Below are positions 1-8,444 of a DNA stretch of 64,000 nucleotides, in pieces (position 1 is the stretch's first letter; every line of letters begins with the position of its first letter). A model generated the notes under the pieces. That model worked only from the letters and a program-made list of their open reading frames with translations. It was not told where the DNA came from and made no database searches. The stretch spans positions 1-64,000 of the forward strand of contig JADBKR010000002.1 in assembly GCA_014896295.1 (NCBI GenBank), in the 5' to 3' direction. This DNA is from Limnochordaceae bacterium. GTDB lineage: Bacteria; Bacillota; Limnochordia; Limnochordales; Geochordaceae. Made by a program: the position numbers and the translations under genes.

Positions 1-323
1 CTCGCTCTGTTTCCCTGGTAGTGGGATTCGACATCGCCTTTGCTCACCCTCGTCGCACCCGTTACAGCGGCCTTCTCCATGCGCTGATCCCCACGGTAAA
101 ATGCCGGCATGGTACGTAGGCCGCGACGCGTTCGTTCCCCGGACCAACTTGTGGCCACGCCATGGCGCGTCCAGGGGTGCGCGCCGAATCAATGGCCGGC
201 CCCCTACAAAGGTGGCCGGCATGCAGGATCCGGCGCCGACGAGAGGGCGGTGACCACGAGAGCCGCGGTGGGGCCTGCCACATTCGCAGGCCTGGTACCC
301 CCCGACCAGACCCCGCTTTCGAC

Positions 324-512
324 CTAACGGGGCACCGCGTTGCGAAGCAGGAAAGCCGCCATGCGCCTGCGGATCGGTGCCCATGCGGGATGGTCCTCAG
401 GTCCGGCCCGGGCGACCGCAAACACCGGTGCGTGCACTGAGCGCGCGACCTCGGCAAGGGTAAGCCCTCGCTCCTGACGGCGAGTCGTGAGCGGTGCATG
501 CCGACGTCTCAC
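324..512 (-). CDS. Small XRE-like helix-turn-helix protein or remnant
   Basis: About 62 residues from a GTG at 512. The segment ERGLTLAEVARSVHAPVFAV has the helix-turn-helix look of XRE-family DNA-binding domains. It resembles the small protein at 1690-1911 on the other strand: both share RGLTL.EVA followed by P.(V)..ARA and a final FLL segment. No convincing ribosome site precedes the GTG, and the frame stays open further upstream with low-complexity Arg-rich sequence that does not look coding. It may be a relic of a duplicated regulator gene. Function is unknown; confidence that it is expressed is low. Confidence 0.25.
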   Translation of the reverse strand: MRRRHAPLTTRRQERGLTLAEVARSVHAPVFAVARAGPEDHPAWAPIRRRMAAFLLRNAVPR

Positions 513-1090
513 GCCGGGCACGTTCGAGCAGTTCTCAGCGACTCCTCCCCGGTCGCCGAGAGCGGCTGCCGGGCTAACGCGGTTGGTGTGGCCGGCCGAT
601 CTAGGGAGGCACCTCAGCGAAAACCGTGGCGCCACCTCGTTTGCCGGGACCGTCGCAAATCGGCACGACACCGTCGCGCCCGTCAGCTCCAGCCGGCAGC
701 GTGCCAGCTCGCGATACATTCGGGGCCGGACAGCGGTGGATTTTCGAGAGGTGGCCGGCTCCACCCTCGGCCGCTCTCTTGCCAGCTCCACTCGCGACTC
801 CTCAGGACTCAGCCCAGCGACCACGGATTGAGAAGTTCGTCCGAAAGCGTGCTGACGCGCTTCTGAGCTTGTCAGGCGACACCCGACGCCCCGGAAACAC
901 CGCATCGCGACGGAGCCAGACGGCGCGCAGTTCGCGTGATGTTCGCGCGCCCCTCCGACCTCCCGCGACTCCTGGAGGCCGGCGCGCCTGGGATACACCT
1001 TCCGGGCGCGCGCCGCCTTACCGGCGGCCGAGCGGCCCAGGAAGACGGTGACGCGGTACTGGCCGGAGGGGAGGTGCTCGATATGTACGG
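513..1090. other. Intergenic stretch with no recognisable gene
   Basis: Several overlapping frames are open here, but none has a ribosome site, a known motif or a natural-looking composition. Their Arg/Ser/Pro-rich translations are what random high-G+C sequence gives. The same applies to bases 1-323. I see no RNA gene or array in it. Confidence 0.5.
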
Positions 1091-1438
1091 CTACCGCTTC
1101 GGCCGCTTAAAGACGAACTCTTGATCGCCATCAATGGTGCCAATGACGGCAACAAGTTCCCAACCGGCTTCCCCGAGATGGTTCAGCCGACTTTCGAGCA
1201 TGCGGGCTTCATAGGCAAACGGAAGGCCGATGTCCTCTTCGACGACGGGTTGCATCGTGACATCGGAGACTGCGATAGCGAACTCTGCACGGGTAGCGAT
1301 CACGAGGTACTCCCACTTCGGGCCGTAGCCTGAGCGCTGCGCTGGGCCAAGCCCGAAGAATGGGGACGCCGCAAGCGCAGTCCCTATGCCCAAGATCAGC
1401 ACAACGCCAAGGCCGAGCCCGATCAGCTTCTTGGACAT
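1091..1438 (-). CDS. Exported small protein with DUF4177-like domain
   Basis: 115 residues. The ATG at 1438 was chosen because AGGAGG lies a few bases upstream; the frame continues upstream but lacks a comparable site. Residues 1-25 form a signal peptide or membrane anchor (MSKK, then a Leu/Gly/Val-rich stretch ending ALAAS). The rest contains WEYLVIATR, LNHLGEAGWELVAVIG and a terminal FVFKRPKR. This WEY...LN.LG.EGWE.V pattern is the core of the DUF4177 family, small beta-rich proteins of unknown role. It stands alone, with no operon partner. The family call is fairly safe; function is not known. Confidence 0.7.
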   Translation of the reverse strand: MSKKLIGLGLGVVLILGIGTALAASPFFGLGPAQRSGYGPKWEYLVIATRAEFAIAVSDVTMQPVVEEDIGLPFAYEARMLESRLNHLGEAGWELVAVIGTIDGDQEFVFKRPKR

Positions 1439-1689
1439 AGCAATGCCTCCTAACGGTAGCCGCAAGGAATGATGGACTATGGCCAAGAGTGAAAGCATTG
1501 CTGATTGGCAACCCTTGTCCACAGCCCGCCGCGTGGCGTGCTCTCTACCTTCAGATCATAGGCAGCCCAGCGGTACCAGGGACCCCAACCTCGCTCCAGA
1601 ACAGGCGCTCGGCACGTTTGGCATGGTCATCCACCCTTCCGCAGGGAGAATACCCCAGCCTCCCGAACCTTCCTGGCGGGGGGGCGACG

Positions 1690-1911
1690 ATGAAGCTTGC
1701 CGACTTACGCCTGAGAAGGATGGAGCGGGGGCTGACCCTACAGGAGGTGGCTGCGAAGACGGACCTCCCCGTGTGGGTGCTAGCGAGGGCGGAGGTCACA
1801 CCTGCATCACATCGCCCGTCGTGCCGAGCACGGGTTAGGATAGCTGTATTCCTTCTGTCCGTCCCGTGGGTTGGACAGGGCGCTGGCCGGGCAGCGCATC
1901 ATACGGTCTAA
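1690..1911 (+). CDS. Small XRE-like helix-turn-helix protein
   Basis: 73 residues from ATG 1690, preceded by a G-rich stretch (GGGGGGGCGACG) that may act as ribosome site. Residues 1-35 contain RRMERGLTLQEVAAKTDLPV, matching helices 2 and 3 of XRE-type DNA-binding domains. The rest is short and ends in a hydrophobic IAVFLLSV stretch. No ligand-binding domain is present. It resembles the minus-strand frame at 324-512. It could be a phage-type or antitoxin-type regulator linked to the island to its right, or a fragment. Target and function are unknown. Confidence 0.4.
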   Translation: MKLADLRLRRMERGLTLQEVAAKTDLPVWVLARAEVTPASHRPSCRARVRIAVFLLSVPWVGQGAGRAAHHTV

Positions 1912-2136
1912 TGCGGCTCTGACGGCCGGGCACCCCTTGCGGTTTGCTCAGACTCCACCATAGCTTCGCAGCGCGCGGTACACGTAGGCAACAAGGGGTG
2001 ACGCCCCCCGCTCTCCGGTCATGGCACTACGACGAAGCCGCCGGACAACAGGTCGCCGGAGTATTGAGAGAGCTCCATCGAGAGTCGTCCCGAAGCGGGG
2101 CCAAGTGTCGAGTTCGGGCTAACTCCTGTGTCCACA

Positions 2137-4833
2137 TCACCGGACCGGTGTGTCGGCAATCAGTCGGTACATGCTCGCGCGTGCATCCGCCAGGATATAG
2201 GCAGCACGCTCTTGGAGCCCTGCCGCTTGCTTTCGCAATTCGGTAGCACGTTGTCTTGCATCGTCCATCAGCCTAGCTATCGCTTCCTGGGTCTCGTCGG
2301 AAGGGACAGGCACTTGGACACTTGCCAGGTGCTCGATGTTCAACTCGGTTTGGCCTGTTGACCCGGACACATAGCGCAGCATCTGAATCTGCCCATACTC
2401 GCTACGCAAGAACTCAACGAGGTATCGAGCGTTGATGCCGTCCTTGACTCGGCAGATAGCAACATGATTGTCGCATATGGCGGGCTCGTCGTATGGGTAT
2501 ATGTCTACCCTGCCTATGGTCCCCTCACCAGTGGACGTGACCAACACATCACCTTTCCGTACGATTCCTCGCTCGCTTTCTTTCCACGTTTCTTCCGTAT
2601 CTGGAGCATAATCCGTATCGGGGTCTATACCCTGCCCTGTGACATTGCGCAGCTTGATAACTGGAATACCCTCTGCTGACTCCTCGGATGGCTTCTTTCC
2701 CCTGACCGGATACCCCTCCTGACAGAGAGACTGAAGAGAGCGGAGCTCAACGGGCATTTTACGCAACGCTTGCATCACGCGGTAGTACGCAGGATGGAAA
2801 AACGTGTAGCTAAAGCGCCCGGTGAGCCGCGGGCGGCGTACTACGTAGCATAAGCGGTCATACAGTAGGCTTGTCCGGTTTACCTCGGGCTCCAACCACG
2901 GTCCAGAGGAGCCATCTGCTTCACGAACGAACTGCACCGTCTCCTCTTCGACCATTTCCAGTTCCAGCTCATCCCACTCTCCAGCTTCGAACTTCCGAAA
3001 CTGATCCCGGATAGATAGCAGGTCGTTTTCCTCAACAGGTTTCCCGGATGGGCTAATGCCGATGTATTCCGCCCTCGCAAAGAATACGTCGCCCTGCTCT
3101 GAGAGGATCGGGTTACCAGGGTCCTTCTTTACCGCGTACATGATACTGGTGCAAGCTGCCCCTTCACTCATCTTAAAGGCATCTTGAGGCAGCCTGATGA
3201 TTGCCTTTACTATACAATGCTCAGTAATATAGTCACGTACGTCTTGATCTTGTTTGTTCGACAGGATGCCCTCGGGTAGGACAATCACCATCCGGCCACC
3301 CGGCCTCAGAAGCCGAATGCACCGTTCGATTAATAGAATCTCCCTCTTTTGGGTCTTTCGCCCCCTACCGAGTTGATAGTAGCCGAGGATGCGGTCCGTG
3401 GAGTCCACCGCTCCAAACGGGGGATTGGTGAGGACAAGATCAAAGATTCCTTCTTCTACAGCTGGTGCCGACGGATAGACCATTCTTCTTTGTGATACTT
3501 TTTGTCGTACCTCCTCTAGGTCAAGAGCATTGGCGTGGTACACGCCTGCATGACCATCACCATGGATGATCATATTCATCTTGCATGTACGCGCGGCCCT
3601 TGGTTCCCAGTCAATTCCGACAAGGCATTGGTTTGCAAGCTCCCGACGTAAGCGCTCTTTCTCTTTGGAAGAGAGCTCCGAAGTCTCGATTTTGTTGCTA
3701 ACCACATCATACGTCCGGATAAGAAACCCGCCTGTTCCGCAAGCCGGGTCAATCACCTTTTCCCCTATTGCCGGATCTGCTAGGTCAACCATGAACCGTA
3801 CGACCTCGCGAGGTGTAAAGTACTGCCCCAGGCCGCCTCCACGATACGTTGCGGCCAGGAACTCCTCGAAGGCCACTCCCTTGACATCAAGGTCCGTCAG
3901 TGTCAGACTGCGATTCTCAAGAATGGCAACGATCTTATCGATCGCTTCCGCTGGAAGTTCGATACCATCGGAGCCCTGTTGATCTGCGAACACCTCGCGA
4001 TACCGGTCCGATGATATTGTGTCTCGCCAGAGGTTTTGGATAATCTCTACTCCCTGCTCTCGCATCTCCTTCACTACTTGCGTTGTGAAACGGTTGACGC
4101 TGCGGCGTCCTTCCTCAACTTCGCGCTCCTCGTACATTTTGCAGAACAGCACCTTGGAAAGCTCATCAAAAGCCTTCGTCGGATCGTACCCCTTAAGATT
4201 ACGAATAACGTCGTGGCAACGACGCATAAGCCGAGATAACTCTCTTGCACTCTCGATTGCAAATAAGGTCCTGGTAGCCTGACGAACCAGAACCGCGCGC
4301 TGGCGTGCCGTTACCCGCCGGCGCTGCTGATCCCCTAGTAATCCGTCATACGTCGGGAGCCCGGGAAGTTGCTGTTTTGTGATTGAGTCATAGACTGCCC
4401 ACGTACCGTTACACAGCGCCGAATATGGAGCGATATCACCCAAGAGTCGGGCATACGATATGACTTGCTCTTTGTCGTTATCGTTGAGGTATTGACGAGG
4501 ATTTTTGGCATCGATGACGATAACCGGAACATCTCGAATGAAGACAACGAGGTCGGCAAAGAGGGTTTTCTTCTCGCGACCCTGGTGTGCGATGATCGGG
4601 TGAGTGAACCTGATGGTGACATGCTTCCCGGGGTCAGTCTCGTTGTAGCCGAGACGCGCCAACTCTGGCAATATCACCTTCGCTACCACGTCTTGTTCAG
4701 AATACAACTCCGGCGGCCGGGCTGCCACGCGGGTGTCGCCTCCCTCCTCGGACAGATAACGTGGTATCACCTGGCCTCGTACGTGTAGGCAGTTCCTATC
4801 CAGATAGTCGCTGTATCGCTCCCATGACGGCAA
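2137..4833 (-). CDS. Single-chain restriction-modification enzyme (nuclease, N6-adenine methylase, specificity domain)
   Basis: 898 residues. Residues 40-150 form an HsdR-N-type PD-(D/E)XK nuclease domain: D94 in LFADLVVF and D108-A-K110 in VIVIDAKNP. Residues 220-480 are the N6-adenine methylase, with DPACGTGGF (motif I, 362-370) and NPPF (motif IV, 470-473), and upstream GQYFTPREV typical of HsdM. Residues from about 660 are one type I-style specificity unit: VIKLRNVTG, GDVLVTSTGEGTIGR, a QTELNIEHLASVQVPVP segment and a terminal helix. There is no SF2 helicase motor, so it should act like a type IIG/type I-and-a-half enzyme that methylates adenine and cuts near its site. It overlaps the EVE gene by about 38 bases. 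Base composition is clearly lower in G+C than the flanks, suggesting transfer. Confidence 0.9.
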   Translation of the reverse strand: MPSWERYSDYLDRNCLHVRGQVIPRYLSEEGGDTRVAARPPELYSEQDVVAKVILPELARLGYNETDPGKHVTIRFTHPIIAHQGREKKTLFADLVVFIRDVPVIVIDAKNPRQYLNDNDKEQVISYARLLGDIAPYSALCNGTWAVYDSITKQQLPGLPTYDGLLGDQQRRRVTARQRAVLVRQATRTLFAIESARELSRLMRRCHDVIRNLKGYDPTKAFDELSKVLFCKMYEEREVEEGRRSVNRFTTQVVKEMREQGVEIIQNLWRDTISSDRYREVFADQQGSDGIELPAEAIDKIVAILENRSLTLTDLDVKGVAFEEFLAATYRGGGLGQYFTPREVVRFMVDLADPAIGEKVIDPACGTGGFLIRTYDVVSNKIETSELSSKEKERLRRELANQCLVGIDWEPRAARTCKMNMIIHGDGHAGVYHANALDLEEVRQKVSQRRMVYPSAPAVEEGIFDLVLTNPPFGAVDSTDRILGYYQLGRGRKTQKREILLIERCIRLLRPGGRMVIVLPEGILSNKQDQDVRDYITEHCIVKAIIRLPQDAFKMSEGAACTSIMYAVKKDPGNPILSEQGDVFFARAEYIGISPSGKPVEENDLLSIRDQFRKFEAGEWDELELEMVEEETVQFVREADGSSGPWLEPEVNRTSLLYDRLCYVVRRPRLTGRFSYTFFHPAYYRVMQALRKMPVELRSLQSLCQEGYPVRGKKPSEESAEGIPVIKLRNVTGQGIDPDTDYAPDTEETWKESERGIVRKGDVLVTSTGEGTIGRVDIYPYDEPAICDNHVAICRVKDGINARYLVEFLRSEYGQIQMLRYVSGSTGQTELNIEHLASVQVPVPSDETQEAIARLMDDARQRATELRKQAAGLQERAAYILADARASMYRLIADTPVR

Positions 4834-5278
4834 CGAAATCGTGTTCGCCTATGCGCACGATGGGCAGCCTCAAGTGCAATCCCCAGTTCCTCTTGTCCTT
4901 AATGAAGTCTAGGCCCGAAAGCAAAGGCTCTATCGGCACGGGCGGTTCAAGTTTGGTGACATCGCGGAATTTGACTTGGTACCGTAAAAACGTGAGACCC
5001 AAGCTTCTTAGAACCTGCCCCTCCGCGTGGCCAATACCGGTAACGCCGCTTCCAAGCGTCGCCCTCGCCACGAAGTACCGTCGCTTCGGGCCAGCCAGGT
5101 AAATCAGTACCTGGTCTCTTTCTGCGAGTCTCCGCAGGTGTGGTGCGGCAGCGGCAAACGCCCAGAAGCCCTTGGCGAGTAGAGTCTCAGCAATTCTGGT
5201 AGCAGATGTACCCATTATGTCATTGGCCACAAAGATAAAACGACCACCTGACTGCTCTTGGCTCATCATCGCCTTCAT
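4796..5278 (-). CDS. EVE-domain (PUA/YTH-like fold) protein
   Basis: About 160 residues from ATG 5278; TTG 5293 and two ATGs a few codons downstream are alternatives, and no start has a strong ribosome site. The sequence RFIFVANDIMG...W AF...RL..RDQVLIYLAG..RYFVARATLGSG, then a C-terminal NWGLHLRLPIVRIGEHDF, matches EVE-domain proteins, which belong to the PUA/YTH-like group. Such domains bind modified bases and are common beside restriction systems. It lies immediately upstream of the restriction-modification gene and overlaps it, so the two are surely co-transcribed. A role in recognising modified DNA or tuning the enzyme is inference. It shares the low G+C of its neighbour. Confidence 0.75.
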   Translation of the reverse strand: MKAMMSQEQSGGRFIFVANDIMGTSATRIAETLLAKGFWAFAAAAPHLRRLAERDQVLIYLAGPKRRYFVARATLGSGVTGIGHAEGQVLRSLGLTFLRYQVKFRDVTKLEPPVPIEPLLSGLDFIKDKRNWGLHLRLPIVRIGEHDFVAVMGAIQRLSG

Positions 5279-5293
5279 CCCATCTATTAGCAA

Positions 5294-5855
5294 TACTGGA
5301 AGACCCTGGCGCCGGCTACCCAGCAGCTAGCCCGGCGTTTCTTTTCGTGCTTGGCCAACAAGCACCTACCGCCACTAGACAACATGTCCGACCGCGCTCC
5401 AGACTGACCCACCCGCTACGGACAGGAGTCCTCCCCATGCCTCTCGACCGTAGCGTCTGTCAGTCGAGCTCGGTGATGCTCGGCGAGATGGCGGGTTACA
5501 AGGCGCTCGGCGCTGTCCCCGAGAGGCGGGATCCTGCCAAACGGGGCACCGGTCACAGCGACCAGCGGCCCCCGACGTACCAACCCCTGTCGGATCCATG
5601 CTCGACCCGCCCGGCGCTCAACGGCCCGGGCGCACGAGCGGGATCAGGAGTTTTCCCTCGATGGATGTCGCATCCGCCAGGGCACCTGTCCTGCTCGCAC
5701 GGAAACGCCCCTCTGAGCCGCGTTCGGCCGTCTCACAAACGCCCGTTCTCGGGGCGTTTCCGCCCGTGTGGCCGCCGGCGGGGGAGGGACGGCTCACACG
5801 AGTACCAGGCGTGAGCGGCGTCGCAAACCCTATAACGGCGCGTCTTCCACGAGAG
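5294..5855. other. Intergenic stretch between the restriction module and the integrase cassette
   Basis: About 560 bases without a credible gene. It separates the minus-strand restriction/EVE pair from the plus-strand RHH-integrase pair and must hold the divergent promoters. The notable structure is the set of GGAAACGCCCC-type repeats at 5701-5761, listed separately. Confidence 0.5.
5701..5761. repeat. Two direct repeats and one inverted copy able to form alternative hairpins
   Basis: GGAAACGCCCC at 5701-5711, AAACGCCC again at 5737-5744, and the inverted copy GGGGCGTTTCC at 5751-5761. The right copy can pair with either left copy, so two mutually exclusive stems are possible: one of 8 bp with a 7-base loop, the other of 11 bp with a long loop. 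No T-run follows, so it is not a plain intrinsic terminator. Confidence 0.5.
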
Positions 5856-5877
5856 CTACTGCAGTTCTACTGCAACG
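5856..5877 (-). repeat. 22-base repeat, left copy (inverted relative to 7338-7359)
   Basis: Read on the minus strand, this is TTGCAGTA, three bases, then CTGCAGTAG. It matches 20 of 22 bases of the copy at 7338-7359, which lies in opposite orientation beyond the integrase gene. Each copy holds two TGCAGTA units one helical turn (11 bases) apart, as expected of arm-type integrase binding sites. The role is inferred from position and form. Confidence 0.6.
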
Positions 5878-5882
5878 CCACT

Positions 5883-5916
5883 TGACCCCGTACAAGGTAC
5901 GGGCGTACCCTTGTAC
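5883..5916 (+). promoter_or_regulatory. Probable promoter with palindromic operator for the RHH-integrase operon
   Basis: TTGACC at 5883-5888 and TACCCT at 5906-5911 are spaced 17 bases apart and give a weak sigma-70-like pair. Overlapping them is an inverted repeat, GTACAAGG (5890-5897) and CCTTGTAC (5909-5916), with an inner GTAC/GTAC echo. The site is 22 bases before the RHH start codon. Autorepression by the RHH protein is the natural reading but is inference. Confidence 0.5.
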
Positions 5917-5938
5917 CGAGAGAGGGGACCTGGAGGCG

Positions 5939-6103
5939 ATGGAGGAGAACCGGCAGTTGAAGGTCGATGTTCCGGCGTCGATGCACGAGTGGCTGAAGAT
6001 CGCCGCGGTGCGGCGCCGCACCACCCTGCGGGCCATCGTGATGCAGGCGCTGCGGGAGTTCATCGAGCGGGAGGAGGCCGGGGCGCGTGGGTCGGCGCGG
6101 TAA
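5939..6103 (+). CDS. Small ribbon-helix-helix DNA-binding protein
   Basis: 54 residues from ATG 5939, preceded by GGAGG at good distance. LKVDVPASMHEWLKIAAVRR, then TTLRAIVMQALREFIERE, is the beta strand-helix-helix of Arc/MetJ-like proteins: alternating hydrophobics in the strand, then two amphipathic helices. Its end overlaps the integrase start by 17 bases, so the two are translationally coupled. A palindrome overlapping the promoter just upstream is the likely binding site. In integrative elements such proteins act as repressor or excisionase-like directionality factor; which of these applies cannot be told from sequence. Confidence 0.75.
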   Translation: MEENRQLKVDVPASMHEWLKIAAVRRRTTLRAIVMQALREFIEREEAGARGSAR

Positions 6104-7271
6104 CGGCGAGGGCACAATCTATCGCCGGAAGGACGGGATGTGGGCGGCGCAGATCGTGGTCGGGCGCAAGCCTGATGGCCGCCTCGACAGGCGCTCCGTG
6201 TACGGCAAGACCCGGGCCGAGGTGGCTGAGAAGCTGGCGAAGCTGCAAACGGCCCGGAGCATGGGGAGCGTCCCGAAGCCGACGAAGCTGAGCGTGGCGG
6301 AGTACCTGGACGCGTGGATCGAAAACCACAAGCGTTTTGGCGGACGTGGCGGCCACGGGCTACGGCCCAACACCTACCTGGGTTACAAGGAAGCTATCGA
6401 CAAGCACATCAAGCCCGTCATCGGCACCATGCGACTAACAGCGGTCGCGCCGGAGCACCTGGAGGCCATATACCGCGGGATGCTGGACAAGAAGCTGTCC
6501 GTCCGCATGGCCGAGATCGCCCACGTCACCCTGCACAAAGCCTTCAAGGATGCGGTGACGAAGGGGCTGCTCCCCGCCAACCCGTGCGACCGGGTGCCGA
6601 GTCCGCCGCGCACCCGCTACCGGGCGTCCGACCGCCCGCGGCTCGCATGGGAGCAGGTGCCCAAGGTGCTCGATGCGGTGCGCGACACCCGTTACTACCT
6701 GCCGATCCTGCTGGCAATGGCGGCGGGGCTCCGGAGGGGCGAGGTGCTGGGGCTGACATGGGAGCACGTGGACTTCTCGAACGGCAAGCTCTATGTCCGC
6801 CAGCAGTGGAACCGCAAGGACGACGGGACCTGGGGCCTCGTCCCCGTGAAGACGAAGGCTTCCGTCCGGGACGTGCCGATTCCGCAAGACGTGGCCGACG
6901 CGCTGGCCGCGCACCAGGTGACGCAGCGGGCGCAGTTCGGCAACCGATGGAGCCCGGCGACACTGGTCTTCGACAGGGGCGACGGGAAGCCCATCAACCC
7001 TGCTGACCTCGACCATGCCTGGGCCGACATCCGTGAGAAGCTGAAGTTGCCGGAGGACCTGCACCTTCACGACCTTCGCGGCAGTTTCGCCACATGGCAC
7101 GCCCAACGGAAGACCGACCTGAAGACCGTCTCGGAGATGCTGGGGCATGCCGACGTGAAGGTGACCCTCGAACTCTACCAGTCGGTGACCGAGACAATGC
7201 GAAAAGAAGCGGCCCAGGCGATCGAGGGGATTACGAAGCTCCGACCGCTGGAGCCGCCCTCCACCGCCTGA
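6087..7271 (+). CDS. Tyrosine site-specific integrase
   Basis: 394 residues from GTG 6087. Residues 5-55 (GEGTIYRRKDGMW...GKTRAEVAEKL) form an AP2-like arm-binding domain as in Tn916-type integrases. Residues 68-165 are the SAM-like core-binding domain. The catalytic domain shows R216 (AGLRRGE), K257 (VKTKASVRD), H328-D-L-R331, H354 (LGHAD) and nucleophile Y364 (LELYQ). All catalytic residues are present, so it should be active. It faces the 3' end of tRNA-Leu 150 bases downstream, the classic arrangement for an element inserted in a tRNA gene. A terminator hairpin and a 22-base repeat follow. Confidence 0.95.
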   Translation: MGRRGNGEGTIYRRKDGMWAAQIVVGRKPDGRLDRRSVYGKTRAEVAEKLAKLQTARSMGSVPKPTKLSVAEYLDAWIENHKRFGGRGGHGLRPNTYLGYKEAIDKHIKPVIGTMRLTAVAPEHLEAIYRGMLDKKLSVRMAEIAHVTLHKAFKDAVTKGLLPANPCDRVPSPPRTRYRASDRPRLAWEQVPKVLDAVRDTRYYLPILLAMAAGLRRGEVLGLTWEHVDFSNGKLYVRQQWNRKDDGTWGLVPVKTKASVRDVPIPQDVADALAAHQVTQRAQFGNRWSPATLVFDRGDGKPINPADLDHAWADIREKLKLPEDLHLHDLRGSFATWHAQRKTDLKTVSEMLGHADVKVTLELYQSVTETMRKEAAQAIEGITKLRPLEPPSTA

Positions 7272-7298
7272 GCCGTCGCTGCACCCTGTCCACGGAGG

Positions 7299-7330
7299 AG
7301 GCCCGGTCACTGCCGGGCCTTCTCTGTTTC
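7299..7330 (+). terminator. Rho-independent terminator after the integrase
   Basis: AGGCCCGG and CCGGGCCT pair perfectly around a 6-base loop (7299-7320), followed by TCTCTGTTTC. It lies 28 bases after the integrase stop codon. Confidence 0.8.
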
Positions 7331-7337
7331 CAGTTCC

Positions 7338-7359
7338 CGTTGCAGTAAAATTGCAGTAG
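7338..7359 (+). repeat. 22-base repeat, right copy
   Basis: Two TTGCAGTA units separated by AAA, so 11 bases apart, between the integrase terminator and tRNA-Leu. It is the partner of the inverted copy at 5856-5877, with two mismatches. It could be an arm-type integrase site or part of an attachment site. Confidence 0.6.
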
Positions 7360-7418
7360 TCGGAGCTGCGTCAAGGTACTTGGGCCTTTGTTCCAGGAGT
7401 CCGAACCCTTGTCACTGT

Positions 7419-7505
7419 TGGTGCCGGCGGCGGGAGTCGAACCCGCATGGGGGGTCACCCCACTCGATTTTGAGTCGAGCGCGTATGCCATTCCGCCACG
7501 CCGGC
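7419..7505 (-). tRNA. tRNA-Leu (anticodon CAA)
   Basis: 87 bases including an encoded CCA. The acceptor stem GCCGGCG pairs with CGCCGGC, the discriminator is A, and the anticodon loop CTCAAAA sits between CTCGA and TCGAG. A long variable arm (TGGGGTGACCCCCA) marks it as class II, and the T arm GCGGG-TTCGACT-CCCGC is intact. Its 3' end points at the integrase gene, making it the probable integration site. Confidence 0.97.
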
Positions 7506-7551: not shown

Positions 7552-8064
7552 TCAACCGCCCGCGTTGCCCCCGGGCGGTTCTTCGTCGGCGGCAGCCGTT
7601 TCGAGGAACGTGGCAAATGCCAGGAGCTCACCTCTGGCCCGCTCGAAGGCACCCTGTGCGGCATCCGCGAGTTCGCGAATCCGGTCCGGTCGCAACCGAG
7701 TCGTGTAGAGTGCACGCACCACGTGCCGAAAGCCCAGGTACTCTTCGAGCGCAGCCGCGGTCTCCCCGGTGAGCACTGCCGGCCGGACCCCTCTGACAGC
7801 GAGCCGCATCTGCCTGAGAAGCTCACGATGCCAATGGGGTCCGGTCGGGACCGATCCGTCTACCTCTCTTGCGATCGCTTCGAAAACCCGCTCCAGCCCG
7901 GAGTAAAACCCGTGCAGATTGAGCGCCGCACCATCGAGGTAGGGGTCCGGGTCGGACGAGCCAACGGCGACCGCCACGTATCGCTGCGCACGGCCGACCA
8001 GCGGCGCCAATTCCTCGAGTTCCTGGCGAATACGCTCCGCGAGCACCGCATAGCGACCGATCAT
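7552..8064 (-). CDS. HepT-like HEPN-domain protein (putative toxin)
   Basis: 170 residues from ATG 8064, whose ATGA overlaps the stop of the upstream nucleotidyltransferase. It is all-helical, with LNLHGFYSGLERVFEAIARE, WHRELLRQM and EEYLGFRHVVRALYTTRL, and matches HepT-like HEPN proteins. HepT toxins are RNases, blocked by or AMPylated by their MntA partner. The usual catalytic motif is R-X4-H before a Tyr; here the motif reads RHVVRALY, so the expected His position is Ala. The enzyme may therefore be weak or inactive. Its gene order (antitoxin first, then toxin) is the standard one. The pair sits just beyond tRNA-Leu. Confidence 0.8.
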   Translation of the reverse strand: MIGRYAVLAERIRQELEELAPLVGRAQRYVAVAVGSSDPDPYLDGAALNLHGFYSGLERVFEAIAREVDGSVPTGPHWHRELLRQMRLAVRGVRPAVLTGETAAALEEYLGFRHVVRALYTTRLRPDRIRELADAAQGAFERARGELLAFATFLETAAADEEPPGGNAGG

Positions 8065-8444
8065 AGCTCTACCCCGTTCTTCTCGATGGAGTGCAGTAGC
8101 CCTCCGGAGCAGCTCTCCCCGTCGACGAGATCGATGGGAATCTCGGGGTCCATCTCGGCCACTTCGGCCACCGCCCGAAAATAGGCCGCACCCGGAAGGC
8201 CCCAGACCGCGATGTCGACGTCGGACCCGAGCCCGAAACGGCCTTCCTCGACCAAGGAGCCGAAAGCGACGACCCGCGCCGCCCGGTACTTCGTACGCAG
8301 GAGCTGCGCGGCCCGACGGGCCAGATCCCACGCCCTGCGATGCCGCTGCTCGGCGCGCCGCGCCTTGCCGCGCTCGCGCTCCAGAGCCGTCGCTCGATAG
8401 CGTGCAATCTCTTCAGGCGTGAGATCCCGCGCCAGTTTTGGCAT
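8061..8444 (-). CDS. MntA-like minimal nucleotidyltransferase (putative antitoxin)
   Basis: 127 residues from ATG 8444. A Lys/Arg-rich N-terminal helix is followed by the pol-beta nucleotidyltransferase signature VVAFGSLVEEG, then SDVDIAVWG, i.e. GS...D-x-D with both metal-binding Asp residues. MntA proteins neutralise HepT by adding AMP to its tyrosine or by binding it. The gene overlaps the HepT-like gene by four bases, so both are made from one message. The N-terminal extension is longer than in minimal family members. It could also be annotated simply as a nucleotidyltransferase-domain protein. Confidence 0.85.
   Translation of the reverse strand: MPKLARDLTPEEIARYRATALERERGKARRAEQRHRRAWDLARRAAQLLRTKYRAARVVAFGSLVEEGRFGLGSDVDIAVWGLPGAAYFRAVAEVAEMDPEIPIDLVDGESCSGGLLHSIEKNGVEL

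Follow-up and report, generated by a model that had tools for sequence, protein, structure and literature searches.

The window, a stretch of 64,000 nucleotides from a Limnochordaceae bacterium, starts at position 1 of contig C2. Near this end, two genes on the reverse strand, encoding a single-chain restriction–modification (R–M) enzyme and, upstream of it, a small EVE-fold protein, lie within the right part of an integrative element. The features of the locus are as follows.

1–7417, no strand assigned: right part of the integrative element, from comparison with G245 and G000:C6
2137–4728, minus strand: single-chain R∼M∼S enzyme, 863 aa from GTG 4728
2140–2811, minus strand: single target-recognition domain (TRD) of the enzyme, from a Pfam Methylase_S match (residues 711–834) and a C-terminal long helix in the predicted model
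2983–4251, minus strand: N6-adenine (gamma) methyltransferase domain, residues 160–582, from Pfam N6_Mtase, motifs, and predicted fold
4324–4728, minus strand: N-terminal HsdR-N-like PD-(D/E)XK nuclease domain, residues 1–135, from HSDR_N and HSDR_N_2 matches and aligned motifs
4739–4749, minus strand: strong ribosome-binding-site-like sequence GAGGAGGGAGG preceding GTG 4728, within the gap 4729–4795
4796–5278, minus strand: divergent EVE-fold gene, 160 aa from ATG 5278, upstream of the enzyme gene
6087–7271, plus strand: tyrosine integrase of the element (Pfam Phage_integrase, E 4.2e-25)
7418–7474, no strand assigned: attR, a 57-bp direct repeat formed by the 3′ part of tRNA-Leu; the other copy is at G000:C6:14771–14827
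7419–7505, minus strand: tRNA-Leu (CAA), the integration target

A complete genome of the same species (G245) matches the window only from position 7418 on, that is, from the 3′ end of the tRNA-Leu gene, and the left flank of the site in G245 matches contig C6 of G000. The 57-bp repeat marks both ends of the element. Hence, these match limits, the flank on C6, and the repeat define a tRNA-Leu element of at least 22 kb, which is present here and absent from G245, where the site is empty. At least 14.77 kb more of the element lies on C6, which an unsequenced gap separates from C2. Contig C6 ends at a DDE transposase gene (G000:C6:86–1744), which probably caused the assembly to break within the element.

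The EVE and enzyme genes have a G+C content of 0.54–0.55, compared with 0.70 in the flank, and a GC3 of 0.58–0.61, compared with 0.87 in the integrase gene of the element; they are cargo that differs in composition from this integrase. A sequence-only reading of the locus had pointed to the lower G+C and taken it as a sign of recent arrival. The composition is as described there, and recent arrival is directly supported by the att repeat and the empty site in G245.

The open reading frame of the enzyme (2137–4833, minus strand) is uninterrupted and would encode 898 aa if TTG 4833, the start of the longest mechanical frame, were used. Pfam matches to the enzyme include N6_Mtase (E 1.7e-41), one Methylase_S unit (E about 1.5e-10), and, at the N terminus, HSDR_N (E about 2e-4) and HSDR_N_2 (E 2e-3), the latter two both under the cut-off; no helicase domain or ATP-dependent motor is among these matches. 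HSDR_N_2 matches five of the six full-length family members that were aligned, the best relative with an E value of 7.8e-13. In the alignment, all catalytic residues of the window nuclease are intact (D59, D73-x-K75, and Q88-xxx-Y92), and this motif, with D or E at position 73, is kept in 9/9 subfamily members. The methylase motifs DPACGTGGF and NPPF (family pattern DPxCGTGGF/NPPF) are intact as well. These domains and motifs agree with the earlier description of the protein as an HsdR-N-type nuclease, an HsdM-type methylase, and one specificity unit without a helicase.

The predicted model of the enzyme has a mean pLDDT of 73.6, with low values in the TRD, which ends with a long helix (residues 811–859). 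The nuclease and methylase parts together (residues 7–582) align with BsaXI with a Z-score of 30.8 and an rmsd of 18.9, the latter being taken across a multidomain span, whereas the values for the methylase part by itself are Z 29.2 and rmsd 3.9. Matches to BsaXI and HsdM chains fall in the range of Z 29–31, and the Z-score to DrdV is about 21. A PD-(D/E)XK nuclease, a gamma N6 methylase in the same chain, a C-terminal TRD, and the lack of a motor are the features of type IIG and IIB enzymes. Judged from its sequence, the protein is a type IIG/IIB-like R∼M∼S enzyme of a known kind, effectively one half of a type I system that lacks its motor.

Type IIG enzymes with one TRD combine a nuclease, a gamma N6 methylase, and one specificity unit in a single motorless chain (PMC3874165). 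BpuSI, DrdV, MmeI, and HaeIV, a probable homodimer, share this single-chain R∼M∼S layout with the window enzyme, but the nuclease of BpuSI is FokI-like (PMC3874165) and that of the window enzyme is HsdR-N-like with a QxxxY motif. The type IIB enzymes BsaXI and BcgI have a fused R∼M like that of the window enzyme, whereas their specificity subunit is a separate protein. In type I systems (HsdR/M/S), to which the nuclease, methylase, and TRD are akin, the subunits are separate and use an ATP motor, unlike the single chain found here. A fusion of nuclease, M, and half-S has been proposed by Bower et al. (2018; PMC6158711) as a route from type I to type IIG, and the window enzyme is a natural case of this proposed step. 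The best NCBIfam match of the methylase is MAD2 of the MADS system (MAD2/MAD5). Membership in MADS was rejected, since the score of 276 bits compares with a MAD2 cut-off of 720 bits; no other MADS genes were found with the window methylase.

The strongest similarity of the enzyme is to HsdM, which, together with the unsequenced C6–C2 gap, would suit a methylase that no longer cuts or one that needs a helicase subunit in trans, as in a true type I system that has been split up. We consider this very improbable: the nuclease residues are kept in all nine subfamily members, the frames that were scanned in the sequenced portions of the element include no HsdR-like gene, and relatives stand alone in phages and in IS-rich sites.

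The sequence-only reading, which is right for the most part, had the EVE gene overlapping the start of the enzyme gene. Such an overlap requires a start at TTG 4833, far upstream. The two nearest relatives (L027 and L028, 64–65% identity) start just before ELYSEQDV, that is, at residue ∼36 and later of the 898-aa frame, and the ELYSEQDV start corresponds to GTG 4728 in the window, 10 nt after GAGGAGGGAGG. With the EVE stop at 4796 and the enzyme start at GTG 4728, a gap of 67 nt (4729–4795) separates the two genes. A similar purine-rich stretch occurs at the same place in L107, before the R–M gene downstream of its EVE gene. Because of the homologue starts, the ribosome-binding-site-like sequence, and the similar site in L107, the overlap was rejected and is probably an artifact of start-codon choice, most likely that of taking the longest frame. 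A promoter and terminator scan of 1900–6100 gave results close to chance.

The HsdR_N∼M∼S family, with 32–65% identity, includes members from Chloroflexi, Acidobacteria, Longimicrobiales, Prevotella, an archaeon, and phage contigs. Nine distinct members were compared (the window enzyme, L027, L028, L029, L030, L031, L095, which equals L099 and L101, L096, and L097/L100); a distant tenth, L098, on a 3.6-kb contig, was left out. The family is rare beyond its known carriers: searches of 347, 393, and 395 genomes gave one new carrier each (a distant one among the 393), and samples of 301 and 299 genomes gave none. A tblastn search with the enzyme in plasmids (E 1e-50) gave no match. Several members adjoin transposases or an integrase, or sit inside phage structural genes. 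At L095/L101, the enzyme gene resembles a moron: genes for phage capsid, protease, and portal proteins surround it, and it is carried on the other strand.

Neighborhoods of the nine members were surveyed with a profile built from few EVE sequences, which may miss distant EVE neighbors. Only two of the nine, the window enzyme and archaeal L031, have an EVE gene next to them, and the L031 protein is a canonical EVE (58.9 bits) that differs from that of the window; the two closest relatives, L027 and L028, lack an EVE neighbor. The idea of a conserved enzyme–EVE pair is therefore not supported, and EVE was rejected as a regular partner of the family.

That an EVE-domain gene stands beside the enzyme was confirmed, although the domain is divergent. 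The window protein scores 17.1 bits against Pfam EVE (PF01878; E 0.0057), with a gathering cut-off of 23 bits, whereas two relatives of the same subfamily exceed the cut-off (L108, 27.5 bits; L109, 23.9 bits). A search of its own genome with the Pfam EVE model gave nothing above threshold, and the window EVE is thus missed by the standard model. Its sequence matches MJECL36 with an E value of 2.4e-4, and a four-sequence EVE profile does so with 1.3e-20. The predicted fold (mean pLDDT 72.7) has a Z-score of 15.8 to the UPF0310 EVE proteins PH1033 and MJECL36, 13.4 to VcaM4I, and 12.5 to the m6A-reading YTH domain of YTHDF2, in agreement with Foldseek. On the predicted model, the upstream gene product is an EVE-fold protein with a PUA-like barrel. 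Candidate base-pocket residues are W39, present in 6/6 subfamily members, and Y68 (Y/F) and W132 (W/Y), each in 5/6.

Relatives of the window EVE (n = 5) were found by sequence alone in a survey that covered part of the phylum of the window. The sample is small and not blind, because the seed profile contained the window and L014. Four of the five lie immediately next to another defence system that methylates adenine, on the same strand and with gaps of roughly 13–90 nt. Two lie directly downstream of BrxL of BREX systems (L014:2–8066, where PglX and PglZ are also present, and L108:5792–6535). The L109 gene is next to a type I R–M system (HsdR-M-S), and at L107:2931–6052 (G108:C20) the EVE gene is directly upstream of a gene for an 845-aa M∼R fusion of a methylase and a BsuBI/PstI endonuclease. 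The partners do not track EVE similarity: the window and L107 proteins are the closest pair for the window EVE (42% identical), yet their R–M types are unrelated, and those of L108 and L109 are 55% identical, yet one accompanies BREX and the other a type I system. This is partner-switching, and the sequences support a link between the EVE subfamily and adenine-methylating defence systems in general. No match was obtained with tblastn of two EVE proteins in plasmids or of the L109 EVE in phages, and EVE queries found no relative in viral_contigs. At L107, a tyrosine integrase gene lies about 4.5 kb away. At L110:7954–11858 (G056:C23), the gene of the fifth relative, a longer EVE protein that carries a coiled-coil extension, is followed by one for a 981-aa protein without a Pfam or PADLOC match.

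The EVE gene could be an unlinked passenger, since defence cargo gathers in mobile elements, and the two genes would then not cooperate. Its absence next to seven of the nine family enzymes fits such an origin, as does the occurrence of the subfamily beside unrelated systems, and we count against a joint reading of the two genes that the nearest enzyme relatives lack an EVE neighbor, that the EVE score is under the Pfam cut-off, and that a passenger would give the same picture in this one genome. However, the operon-like distance and shared strand in four of the five relatives exceed what loose clustering predicts, and the EVE gene shares its base composition with the enzyme gene. On balance, we regard a passenger as unlikely. 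We give about even chances to the reading that a tRNA-Leu element carries a two-gene defence cargo made up of a motorless type IIG/IIB-like R–M enzyme and a partner-switching EVE accessory, a likely reader of modified DNA.

Standalone EVE genes beside R–M systems, mainly of type I, were described by Bell, Wolf, and Koonin (2020; PMC7641849), who proposed that they target modified DNA. The window pair likewise consists of a small EVE gene adjoining an adenine-methylating R–M gene, but its partner is a single-chain IIG-like enzyme, and related EVE genes are found next to a BsuBI/PstI M∼R fusion and next to BREX, a word that is absent from the main text of that article. The association of EVE with R–M is thus already known; the window pair extends it to a single-chain IIG-like enzyme, and the related genes extend it to the BsuBI/PstI fusion and to BREX. 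The EVE domain of VcaM4I, a different EVE from the window subfamily, flips and reads 5mC and 5hmC (PMC7897488).

For the two-gene cargo, we propose the following mechanism. As each enzyme chain has one TRD, two chains would pair and read an interrupted palindrome, along the lines proposed for HaeIV; the dimer would methylate adenine in both half-sites and cleave close to sites that lack methylation. This scheme draws on the type IIG/IIB precedent (PMC3874165) and on the dimerization of engineered M∼half-S fusions (PMC6158711). The small upstream gene encodes a member of a subfamily that accompanies many defence systems with adenine methylation. This protein probably recognizes DNA that carries chemical modifications, most likely by binding a modified base, and may widen or license the neighboring system, for example against phages that escape ordinary restriction through their base modifications. 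This role draws on Bell et al. (PMC7641849) and on VcaM4I (PMC7897488). We infer co-expression of the two genes, as well as the dimer, the motif, cutting, the EVE ligand, and any contact of the two proteins.

Instead of foreign modified cytosine, the EVE protein might read the N6-methyladenine mark of its own system, or the absence of this mark, and tune the enzyme or its expression for self-protection or control. The partners identified for the EVE relatives are, in all four cases, adenine-methylating systems, as is the window enzyme, and the fold also aligns with m6A-reading YTH domains. Still, the adenine pattern discriminates weakly because m6A is in any case the mark of most type I, IIG, and BREX systems, and the fold is nearer to EVE than to YTH; we consider own-mark reading improbable for the window pair. 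A broader version, which we judge quite improbable, makes the divergent subfamily an exchangeable accessory common to adenine-marking systems (type I, IIG, BsuBI/PstI-type, and BREX) that reads N6-methyladenine as the mark of its host system and not foreign modified cytosine.

The main interest of the locus is the partner-switching of the EVE subfamily. If the EVE protein is indeed a reader that plugs into many defence systems, one short gene could broaden or regulate several systems of unrelated type, and the base that it reads is directly testable.

Two further sets of small frames lie near these genes. Within the element, frames at 324–998 (minus strand) and 1489–1911 (plus strand) have, by eye, similar helix-turn-helix-like stretches (RGLTLAEVA and RGLTLQEVA). 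Just outside it, within the stretch common to G245, 7552–8444 (minus strand) contains a Pol-beta-type nucleotidyltransferase frame (8061–8444) and, next to it, another small frame; the two may be an MNT/HEPN-type pair.
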